Position numbers and translations under genes: made by a program. A stretch of 64,000 bases of DNA from an uncultured Eubacteriales bacterium (GTDB lineage Bacteria; Bacillota; Clostridia; Lachnospirales; Lachnospiraceae): positions 62,001 to 126,000 of the forward strand of contig OMWV01000011.1 in the NCBI GenBank assembly GCA_900314845.1. Direction: 5' to 3'. The notes beneath the pieces are model-generated. The model did no database searches. It saw nothing but the letters and a program-made list of their open reading frames with translations, and had not been told where the DNA came from. Below are positions 4,664-12,550 of the stretch, in pieces (the first letter of the stretch is position 1; the number at the start of each line of letters is the position of its first letter).

Positions 4664-5455
4664 TTATTTTGTCTTGTACTGCCTTTTATAACCAAAGTTA
4701 TGTTCTGCCGCGTAATCGTAAAAACAGACCTGGGCTGTGTGCAGACAGGCTGACCCTATGCAGCCGAGCGCGAGCAGAGCAGTCCCGGGGGCACCCATTG
4801 TATTGGTGATGCCGACGACGTTATAGACTGCATTTACGATGAAATCTTCTGTCACTGTAAATTTTCCGGATTCCAGCAGTACGGACGGAAGGTATAAGAT
4901 TATGTAGAGAGGGACAAAGCAGACACAGAGCAGTACGTACTGCACCAGGTTCGTTCGCATCAGATCCCAGCCATGCATCATGCTGTAGAGCACATTTTTT
5001 GAGGGATCATCCGTCATAGCGATATAACAGATGCTGTACCAGCTCTTGACAAATAGAAAGAAGAGGGCGACAATGATAAGCCCGTGATAGCCGTACATAT
5101 ACCTGGTCACATAATTCAGAAGGCAGACGGCAAGAATGTTGAGCAGGATCGAGTTGATCATGACCCCTGCTTTTGAGAAGCCGAAGTACATATCCTTCAG
5201 GGATGCCTTAAGCCCTCTCTTCAGATTGAGAATGATATGGAATACGCTGATCTTCAGCGGTCCGGAGACAATGTAACTGTAAACTTCTGTGCGCCGTAGG
5301 ATATCATTTCCGGCTCCAAATGCTTTTGCTGTTAACATGGGAGCCATGCAGATAAGGAAGCTGATTAGTTCTGCCAGCAATAATCTTGATGTATTTTTCT
5401 TTAGAGTAGTTTCTGCTGAGTATAAAATATAGCCTGCTGCATCCTTATTCTGCAT
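4664..5455 (-). CDS. Integral membrane protein, DUF975-like
   Basis: A 263-residue protein with about five or six hydrophobic segments: residues about 25-45, 95-115, 120-140, 170-190 and 225-245 stand out. The hydrophilic N-terminus is rich in Lys and Asn. The overall pattern, including the C-terminal segment ending in FYDYAAEH, resembles the DUF975 group of Firmicute membrane proteins. No enzymatic or transport motif is visible, so no function is claimed. The start ATG at 5455 is preceded by GGGGAG. It reads opposite to ftsY and its stop is 7 bases from the ftsY stop. It lies 66 bases downstream of the permease gene on the same strand and could be read through from it. Confidence 0.6.
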   Translation of the reverse strand: MQNKDAAGYILYSAETTLKKNTSRLLLAELISFLICMAPMLTAKAFGAGNDILRRTEVYSYIVSGPLKISVFHIILNLKRGLKASLKDMYFGFSKAGVMINSILLNILAVCLLNYVTRYMYGYHGLIIVALFFLFVKSWYSICYIAMTDDPSKNVLYSMMHGWDLMRTNLVQYVLLCVCFVPLYIILYLPSVLLESGKFTVTEDFIVNAVYNVVGITNTMGAPGTALLALGCIGSACLHTAQVCFYDYAAEHNFGYKRQYKTK

Positions 5456-8429: not shown

Positions 8430-8523
8430 TAGATCAACTCCTTAAATAAATTATACTGTCAACTTGCTGCTTCTCGAGATGTTGTGGCTGCAGTACTGCT
8501 TGATCAATTTCAACTCTATTCCA

Positions 8524-8541
8524 TAGCAACGGGCATGCCAA
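8524..8541 (-). promoter_or_regulatory. Candidate sigma-54 (-24/-12) promoter of the CoA-transferase operon
   Basis: On the minus strand the sequence TTGGCATGCCCGTTGCTA reads as a -24/-12 promoter. The invariant GG (8539-8538) and GC (8527-8526) are separated by exactly 10 bases, and the flanks match the known TGGCAC-N5-TTGC pattern closely. Transcription would begin near 8514, giving a leader of about 85 bases before ATG 8429. A sigma-54 promoter needs an enhancer-binding activator; none is encoded in the window. Confidence 0.65.
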
Positions 8542-8597
8542 AAAAAGAAAATCATTCAAAGTGACAGAAGAAAATCAGATATTTATTGCGTAAAATG

Positions 8598-8622
8598 CAC
8601 AAATATTGGGCAGCCATTTGTG
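8598..8622. promoter_or_regulatory. Inverted repeat, candidate enhancer site for a sigma-54 activator
   Basis: CACAAAT (8598-8604) and ATTTGTG (8616-8622) form a perfect 7-base dyad with an 11-base spacer. The centre is about 97 bases upstream of the predicted sigma-54 start. That distance and the dyad form are usual for binding sites of bacterial enhancer-binding proteins. The role is inferred from position only. Confidence 0.45.
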
Positions 8623-8784
8623 ACGGACACAGGGATGGATCAGAACATGCCGAGGCGGATCTTTTTGAAAAACAGTGCAGATGACGCAACATATGCTGCC
8701 GAAATGCATCAAATCTATAGATGAGATGTCTGCCTCATGCAGCCGGCTGTTTTTTGAAAAGTGCAGGGCAGGGGGAAAATACTG

Positions 8785-8813
8785 TTGACAAAGGCAGGTT
8801 TGTGAGATAGAAT
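8785..8813 (+). promoter_or_regulatory. Sigma-A promoter for ylxM-ffh
   Basis: TTGACA (8785-8790), a 17-base spacer and TAGAAT (8808-8813). The -35 is consensus and the -10 differs at one base. Transcription should start near 8820, inside the inverted repeat described next. Confidence 0.85.
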
Positions 8814-8847
8814 ACCACCTGTAAAGCAAAAATACTTTACAGGTGGT
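8814..8847 (+). promoter_or_regulatory. Perfect 13-base inverted repeat covering the ylxM start and ribosome site
   Basis: ACCACCTGTAAAG (8814-8826) and CTTTACAGGTGGT (8835-8847) are exact reverse complements with an 8-base A-rich loop, followed by GATTTTTT. The left arm abuts the -10 box and spans the expected transcription start. The right arm contains AGGTGG, the ribosome site of ylxM. It could act as a DNA operator, as an RNA hairpin hiding the ribosome site, or, with the T run, as a weak attenuator. Which one applies cannot be decided from sequence. Confidence 0.7.
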
Positions 8848-8853
8848 GATTTT

Positions 8854-10656: not shown

Positions 10657-10902
10657 ATGGCAGTTAAGATCAGATTAAGGAGAATGGGAGCAAAGAAGGC
10701 ACCTTTTTACAGGATCATCGTTGCAGACTCCAGATCTCCCAGAGATGGAAGATTTATCGATGAGATCGGAACATACAATCCGAACGTAGAGCCCAGCGAT
10801 GTTAAGGTTAACGCAGAGCTCGCACAGAAGTGGCTTTCAAACGGAGCTCAGCCCACAGCTACTGTAAGCAGGCTGTTCAAACAGGCAGGAATTACAAAAT
10901 AA
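10657..10902 (+). CDS. rpsP: 30S ribosomal protein S16
   Basis: Small-subunit protein needed for 30S assembly, 81 residues, the standard length. The N-terminus [26 protein letters not shown] is the S16 signature. ATG 10657 is chosen because AGGAGG (10643-10648) lies 8 bases before it; the longer frame from GTG 10648 would start inside that ribosome site. It opens the common order rpsP-khpA-rimM-trmD. Confidence 0.98.
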
Positions 10903-10921
10903 TTCTGATGGAGGAATCAGG

Positions 10922-11149
10922 ATGAAAGAATTAGTAGAAGTAATTGCCCAGGCGCTTGTTGATCATCCGGAGGAAGTAGCAGTTACAGAAACCGAGACGG
11001 ACAGAGCTGTAGTCATCGAACTGAAGGTTGCCCCAGATGATATGGGCAAAGTTATAGGCAAGCAGGGAAGGATCGCCAGAGCGATCAGAACTGTTGTCAA
11101 GTCTTCAGCAGCAAAGGATGACAAGAAAATTATCGTAGACATCCTGTAA
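10922..11149 (+). CDS. khpA: KH-domain RNA-binding protein KhpA
   Basis: A 75-residue single KH-domain protein (YlqC / KhpA, formerly UPF0109). The KH loop is seen as KVIGKQGRIARAIRTVVK near residues 42-60. In related Firmicutes KhpA pairs with KhpB and binds small RNAs and mRNAs affecting cell division and elongation. The ribosome site GGAGG lies before ATG 10922, and the gap to rpsP is 19 bases. It is followed by two RNA hairpins before rimM. Confidence 0.95.
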   Translation: MKELVEVIAQALVDHPEEVAVTETETDRAVVIELKVAPDDMGKVIGKQGRIARAIRTVVKSSAAKDDKKIIVDIL

Positions 11150-11180
11150 AATTCATACAGCTGTTGGATCTGAAATCTGG

Positions 11181-11210
11181 GGCTGCCGATAGAGATTATC
11201 GGCAGCCTTT
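11181..11210 (+). terminator. Hairpin after khpA, probable weak terminator
   Basis: GGCTGCCGATA (11181-11191) and TATCGGCAGCC (11197-11207) form a perfect 11-base stem with a 5-base loop, followed by only TTTC. With so short a U run it may terminate only part of the transcripts. Confidence 0.6.
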
Positions 11211-11232
11211 CATAATGTACAGGCGGCGGGAT

Positions 11233-11264
11233 GTGCAGACGATGAGCTGCGAAGCCGTCTGCAC
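11233..11264 (+). other. Second hairpin in the rimM leader
   Basis: GTGCAGACG (11233-11241) and CGTCTGCAC (11256-11264) form a perfect 9-base stem with a 14-base loop, ending 22 bases before the rimM start. There is no U run, so it is unlikely to be a terminator; it may be a processing or stability element. Confidence 0.5.
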
Positions 11265-11286
11265 GCAGTCATTGAAAAGGAGAATA

Positions 11287-11799
11287 ATGGCAGCTTATCT
11301 GAGAGTGGGAGTAATAACTGCACCGCACGGGATACACGGACAGGTAAAGGTCTACCCGACTACGGACGATGTCCGGCGCTTTACGCAGCTGGATCACTGT
11401 TATGTGGAGACAAAGTCCGGCAGGAAGACCCTTCATCCGGAGGACGTGCGCTTTTTCAAAAATCTTGTCATCATACAGTTCCGGGAATTTTCCAGCATAG
11501 AAGATGCCATGCCCTATAAGGGCGGGGATCTTCTCATAGACAGAGACCAGGCCATTCCTCTGGGGGAAGGCGAGTACTATATTGCCGATCTGATAGATCT
11601 TAAGGTGCAGACGGAAGACGGGACAGTGCTCGGCGTCCTTCAGGATGTAATGGAGACCGGGGCTAATGACGTATATATCGTGGGCAGACCAGACGGAAAG
11701 GACCTGCTCATCCCGGCTATACCGGATTGCATCCTTGACATAGACCTTCAGGAGGGCGTCATCACGGTGCACCTGCTGGACGGGCTTCTCAATCTCTAG
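11287..11799 (+). CDS. rimM: 16S rRNA maturation factor RimM
   Basis: Assembly factor that helps the 3' (head) domain of 16S rRNA mature and binds S19. The 170 residues are the usual length, starting with [22 protein letters not shown], the RimM N-terminal barrel, and having a PRC-barrel C-terminal half with [24 protein letters not shown] 11287 is preceded by AAAGGAG; the reading frame is open upstream to 11164 but those residues do not belong to the family and run through the hairpins. trmD starts 10 bases later. Confidence 0.97.
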
Positions 11800-11809
11800 G
11801 AGACAGAAT

Positions 11810-12550
11810 ATGCATTTTCATGTTATGACATTATTCCCTGATATGATTACGGCAGCCATGTCGCAGAGCATCATTGGGAGAGCGCAGAAACAGGGCATTA
11901 TCTCTGTCGAAGCTGTGGATATCAGGGATTTTTCAAAGGATAAACACAGGCATGTAGACGACTATCCCTACGGAGGGGGAGCAGGGATGGTCATGCAGCC
12001 CGGCCCGATCTATGACTGCTATCAGTCTATAGCGGCCAGGACAGGCAAGGCCAGAGTCATCTATACAACTCCTCAGGGAAGGGTATTTTCCCAGAAGGAT
12101 GCCAGGGAGCTTGCCCGGGAAGAAGATCTGATCATACTCTGCGGCCACTATGAAGGGGTAGATGAGAGGGTCCTGGAGGAGATCGTCACAGACAATTTTT
12201 CCATAGGCGATTATGTCCTGACCGGCGGGGAACTGCCGGCAATGGTCATGATGGACGCTGTCGCCAGGATGGTGCCGGGCGTCCTGACAAATGAGTCTTC
12301 AGCAAGCGAGGAAAGCTTTGAGGGAGGCCTCTTGGAGTATCCCCAGTACACGAGGCCGGAAGTCTATCACGGCGTAAGTGTCCCTCCGGTTCTTTTGTCC
12401 GGCCACCATGCCAATATTGAGAGATGGCGCCGCCGTCAGTCTCTGGAGAGGACATGCAAAAGGCGGCCGGATCTTCTGCAAAAGGAGATAGAGGCCGGGA
12501 GGCTGAGCCCGGAAGATCTTAATATCATCAGTCAGCTTGAGTCAGAATGA
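11810..12550 (+). CDS. trmD: tRNA (guanine37-N1)-methyltransferase TrmD
   Basis: SPOUT methyltransferase that uses S-adenosylmethionine to methylate G37 of tRNAs and so prevents frameshifting. The 246 residues carry the knot motifs [12 protein letters not shown] and [23 protein letters not shown], and the segment [12 protein letters not shown]. Length and start are typical; GGAGACAG precedes ATG 11810. In most Firmicutes rplS follows directly; here rplS lies about 6.9 kb away, after the lut and pdx genes. Confidence 0.98.

Follow-up and report, generated by a model that had tools for sequence, protein, structure and literature searches.

Control of the atoDAEB operon by AtoC in Escherichia coli is sigma-54 dependent. 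AtoC is the activator that turns on this short-chain-acid CoA-transferase operon (PMC3118216). In Clostridiales, Nie et al. (2019) predicted the sigma-54 operons cotX-gntT (under CrbR), cotY-gntT-bcd-etfAB (under XcgR) and crt-gntT-caiB-bcd-etfAB (under YctR), and binding of SigL to the cotX-gntT promoter of C. beijerinckii was demonstrated by EMSA in the same study (PMC6615313). Here, cot presumably denotes CoA-transferase, judging from the gene names and from the Geosporobacter and Clostridium loci. A 2025 survey also counts acyl-CoA:acetate CoA-transferases and acyl-CoA dehydrogenases among the sigma-54 targets (PMC12316311). As to the activators, most described binding sites are located 100-250 bp above the -24 element, and TGT-N10-12-ACA is the site type described for fifteen activator groups.

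The operon studied here occupies positions 8429-5522 on the minus strand of a 64,000-nucleotide stretch of DNA (the window) from an uncultured Lachnospiraceae bacterium. It resembles the CrbR/XcgR operons cotX-gntT and cotY-gntT of Clostridium and Geosporobacter in two respects: a CoA-transferase gene is likewise followed by a gene for a GntT-like permease behind a sigma-54 promoter, for which the consensus TTGGCATNNNNNTTGCT was described, and the activator there, like the candidates here, is a one-component protein (PMC6615313). However, those operons carry TGT-N10-12-ACA sites, whereas none is found in the 250 bp above the promoter of the operon under study, which rules out CrbR-type sites as its enhancer, and no activator gene is adjacent. 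Moreover, our candidate activator falls into another clade of the tree than the activators of the Clostridium and Geosporobacter loci. Because the CrbR and XcgR site type is absent, we do not place the operon under either regulator. The sequence-only reading had likened the system to the AtoC type, which is appropriate only in a broad sense; AtoC, however, is a two-component response regulator, whereas the activators encoded in this genome lack a receiver domain and mostly match PAS. Since the candidates are one-component proteins, the operon is not placed under AtoC either. In view of the predictions and the EMSA of Nie et al. 2019 (PMC6615313) and of the 2025 survey (PMC12316311), we regard it as a further example of a known pattern.

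The operon and its sigma-54 promoter

The first gene encodes a class I CoA-transferase of the YdiF/Pct type, in which both halves are fused and a glutamate is present at the catalytic position. In YdiF, the catalytic residue is Glu333. The protein aligns end to end with E. coli YdiF (PDB 2ahu; 396 bits) and shares this glutamate; however, its score against the FadX equivalog, 370 bits, stays below the cut-off of 750. The permease shares 29-33% identity with those of related operons. The operon likely serves the uptake of a short-chain acid and its activation with CoA. A predicted membrane protein of 263 aa is encoded on the same strand 66 bp after the permease gene (4664-5455); it has no Pfam or NCBIfam match and may or may not be a member of the operon. 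On the plus strand, a near-perfect sigma-A promoter (TTGACA-N17-TAGAAT, 8785-8813) is immediately followed by a perfect inverted repeat of 14-15 bp with a T run (8813-8848), which directly precedes the start of a ylxM-like gene (8854), itself upstream of ffh. No Rfam element was detected between 4400 and 9300.

Table 1. Coordinates of the operon genes and of the real, candidate and rejected control elements, as positions in the window.
Feature	Position	Strand	Sequence	Remarks
Candidate activator-binding site 1	8694..8711	-	TGATGCATTTCGGCAGCA	170 bp above -24; top match of the C11-clade model
Candidate activator-binding site 2	8674..8691	-	TGTTGCGTCATCTGCACT	20 bp from site 1; tandem score p = 0.003
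Dyad CACAAAT-N11-ATTTGTG of the sequence-only reading	8598..8622	.	CACAAATGGCTGCCCAATATTTGTG	string search, shuffles, comparison with fetched loci
Weak TGT-N12-ATA site	8584..8601	-	TGTGCATTTTACGCAATA	overlaps right arm of dyad; score 6.0, about the shuffle mean
Sigma-54 -24/-12 element	8525..8541	-	TTGGCATGCCCGTTGCT	pattern count, matrix score, conservation
Predicted transcription start	8512..8516 (near 8514)	-		about 12 nt below the -12 GC, from known sigma-54 promoter geometry
TATAAT of the sigma-A reading	8450..8455	-		best -35 is TCGAGA at 8477
Fused class I (YdiF-like) CoA-transferase, 522 aa	6861..8429	-		Glu326 aligns with YdiF Glu333
CitMHS/GntT-like organic-acid permease, 437 aa	5522..6835	-		family and sequence comparison

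The -24/-12 element in front of these genes is almost certainly a real sigma-54 promoter, as judged from both its score and its conservation. As first proposed from the letters alone, the string TTGGCATGCCCGTTGCTA (minus strand, 8541-8524) contains the invariant GG (8539-8538) and GC (8527-8526) exactly 10 bases apart; the flanking consensus is also present, and the string stands far above chance. The whole 2.3 Mb assembly contains TTGGCAY-N5-TTGCW five times and the pattern read backwards not at all; of the remaining four matches, two fall inside open frames and two border the gene of an activator on contig C11. With a consensus-based matrix of our own construction, the element scores 18.2, level with the sites beside activator genes. 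One site in the 64-kb window scores 17 or more, versus 0.05 expected from dinucleotide shuffles.

Comparison with homologous loci points in the same direction. In a collection of 85,000 species, the closest relative of the CoA-transferase is found in Candidatus Intestinimonas pullistercoris (72% identity; locus L049), followed by Synergistales proteins (60-61%), whereas 200 genomes of the same family and six of the genus provide at most 51% identity. This distribution makes it likely that the gene was gained by horizontal transfer. L049 carries a near-identical element, TTGGCATTCCCTTTGCT, 149 bases above the start codon. Across the fetched homologue loci, a redundant set of 79 that includes the operon under study and paralogues, 22 have a sigma-54 element within 400 bp above the gene, versus one, a weak one, on the opposite strand. 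These elements are located 58-155 bases upstream of the start, and only loci whose homologue reaches at least about 46% identity have them; many Clostridia homologues at roughly 50% identity have one. The count of 22 versus one indicates that in Clostridia this CoA-transferase family is commonly under sigma-54 control. The homologous operons have TGT-N10-12-ACA sites upstream of the promoter, often in three copies about 42 bp apart. Six loci (L084, L092, L094, L095, L096 and L106) display three TGT-N12-ACA sites at 41-43 bp spacing, that is, four helical turns, above the sigma-54 promoter.

Sigma-54 machinery of the genome

The genome encodes one RpoN (C46:39293, E 1.7e-56). In the assembly, which by estimate lacks about 2% of the genome, a full-length sigma-54 activator domain is present in five proteins, encoded on contigs C8, C9, C11, C27 and C44. 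All five possess a Fis-type or related C-terminal helix-turn-helix, and none has a match to a receiver domain. A PAS domain exceeds the Pfam cut-off in the C8, C11, C27 and C44 proteins, while the C9 protein has a weak PAS match. The GAFTGA-like loop is kept in four of the five. The exception is the activator-like PAS/AAA+/Fis protein of C8 (30530-31999; locus L011, 8531-10000), which also has a weak sigma-54 domain score and is probably no longer able to drive sigma-54. Hence, both rpoN and enhancer-binding regulators, the latter as four intact and one degenerate protein, are available, and sigma-54 dependence of the operon, as the sequence-only reading had claimed, is supported by them together with the retention of the element in the closest orthologue and in numerous homologous operons.

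Each of the four intact activators is encoded near acyl-CoA operons carrying sigma-54 elements. The PAS-containing C11 activator (10872-12269) is flanked by two sigma-54 promoters, one serving an acyl-CoA dehydrogenase and the other a MaoC-type hydratase, and the C27 activator adjoins a paralogous CoA-transferase operon. The C9 activator adjoins an operon for a transporter and an acyl-CoA dehydrogenase, and the C44 activator is found near a crotonase-permease-CaiB operon, the product names in both cases having been read off the sequences and not obtained by family search. The C44 operon (L013, 14920-18505) has a sigma-54 element and several upstream palindromes similar to TTCA-N4-TGAA, and is reminiscent of the operon that Nie et al. 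assigned to YctR (PMC6615313). A third CoA-transferase paralogue (49%; C32:2405-3946) has no sigma-54 element upstream.

No activator gene is present near the operon under study, and for this reason the activator would have to act in trans. Such an activator encoded elsewhere had been postulated from the window, and the comparison agrees: none is adjacent here, and one stands divergently beside the nearest orthologue. The latter, a PAS/AAA+/Fis protein, has its best match among the five proteins of this genome in C11 (50% over 461 residues), and a maximum-likelihood tree places it in one group with C11, with the orthologue of C11 in G201 (77%) and with two further proteins (support 95/96). This C11 group may lie outside the 39 activator groups described in Clostridiales. 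Control of the operon by sigma-54 and a remote activator appears, on this evidence, quite probable.

Candidate activator sites and alternative readings

The site model for the C11 clade comprises four sites, namely those of L049, of G201 and of the two C11 promoters, so that two stem from this genome; L131, the locus of the G500 activator, had been fetched as a possible member of the clade and was left out because this activator groups with C44 in the tree. With the model, which was refined while looking at the upstream region of the operon, the pair of palindromes at 8711-8674 reaches p = 0.003 against shuffles. The first of them, TGATGCATTTCGGCAGCA, shares 14 of 18 positions with the site of the C11 dehydrogenase promoter, and the best pairs at the promoters of the C11 clade itself are also 19-22 bp apart, G025 excepted. 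Among 426 upstream regions, drawn from 604 kb of the 2.3 Mb genome, that of the operon ranks fifth, with three C11 regions and one further region ahead of it; a matrix lacking the sites of this genome puts it seventh. At 170 bp above the -24 element, the tandem site also falls within the range of 100-250 bp of most described sites.

The sequence-only reading had instead assigned the enhancer to a perfect dyad, CACAAAT-N11-ATTTGTG (8622-8598), about 97 bases upstream of the start. The dyad exists: its midpoint is some 96 bases upstream of the start predicted near 8514, its 7-bp arms are perfect and its distance is plausible. However, equal dyads are frequent by chance: when the 150 bp above the -24 element are shuffled, 17% of the shuffles contain a perfect dyad with 7-bp arms (gap 3-20), and for the 424-bp upstream region the share is 41%. 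The exact string occurs once in the genome, but its choice was made post hoc, and uniqueness is uninformative because it is expected of any chosen 14-base string. Moreover, the dyad is absent from L049 and from the other loci compared with it; it is not of the TGT-N10-12-ACA type of the homologous operons; and, at 57-81 bp above the -24 element, it is closer than most described sites. A weak TGT-N12-ATA site (8601-8584) overlaps the right arm of the dyad; this site was attractive at first because of a register shared with L049 and C11, but we rejected it as the main enhancer since it scores near the shuffle mean. A copy of the dyad with one mismatch near the C8 activator (C8:30054) was set aside, as no related gene follows below it. 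We therefore reject the dyad as a conserved enhancer and judge it clearly improbable that it serves as the enhancer at all; the tandem site is, suggestively, the better candidate. A dyad that looks clean and lies close to a good promoter is by itself no evidence of an enhancer.

Two further explanations concern the activator and the promoter. The operon could be switched on from the sigma-54 promoter by C9, C27, C44 or an activator that the incomplete assembly lacks, by way of the same palindrome or of another place. The site models of all four intact activators select the palindrome at 8711-8694, that of C9 with p = 0.014 and those of C27 and C44 more weakly, and therefore the location of the site is better supported than the identity of its activator; C27, by position, already controls the paralogous CoA-transferase operon. 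It also speaks against C11 that its model gives the C27 operon nearly the same score (14.4) as the operon under study (15.0). However, the tree groups the L049 activator with C11, and the second copy of the site 20 bp away fits the C11 clade. We regard another activator as a serious contender of somewhat less than even probability. C11 is favoured on account of the grouping of the L049 activator and the fit of the tandem site to the C11-clade model; we hold it to be the leading candidate, with a chance just short of even. It appears highly improbable that a sigma-A promoter drives the operon and that the sigma-54 string is accidental. The TCGAGA/TATAAT pair at 8477-8450 does agree with the sigma-A consensus in 10 of 12 positions, but its -35 is poor, the leader, starting right at the ribosome-binding site, would measure only about 13 nt, and conservation of the -24/-12 element in L049 and the homologues would be left unexplained; the site was rejected for its weak -35 and nearly missing leader.

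Proposed regulation and its place in Clostridia

Under sigma-54 control, the operon would be transcribed from the promoter at 8541-8525. Sigma-54 RNA polymerase would wait there, and opening would be brought about by an AAA+ activator that carries a Fis-type DNA-binding domain, is encoded at another locus of the genome, binds upstream and hydrolyses ATP upon a presumed signal, which the sequence-only reading took to be the substrate of the operon. The activator would most likely bind at the tandem palindromic site 8711-8674, not at the dyad, and the PAS-domain protein of contig C11 (10872-12269) is the most likely candidate for this role. As C11 is also found at the dehydrogenase and hydratase promoters, uptake of the presumed short-chain acid substrate, its activation with CoA and its oxidation are perhaps switched on together; under such joint control, the operon would form a degradative set with the C11 dehydrogenase and hydratase. 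The complete scenario, in which C11 acts in trans by way of tandem 18-bp sites spaced 20 bp apart and governs both the dehydrogenase/MaoC pair and an apparently horizontally acquired, rewired CoA-transferase/permease operon, is tentative and, taken as a whole, somewhat improbable.

In Clostridia, short-chain-acid activation and fermentation under sigma-54 form a known pattern. Our analysis extends it by a well-supported sigma-54 operon from a genome that encodes few activators, and the orphan operon and its putative remote activator constitute a testable pairing.
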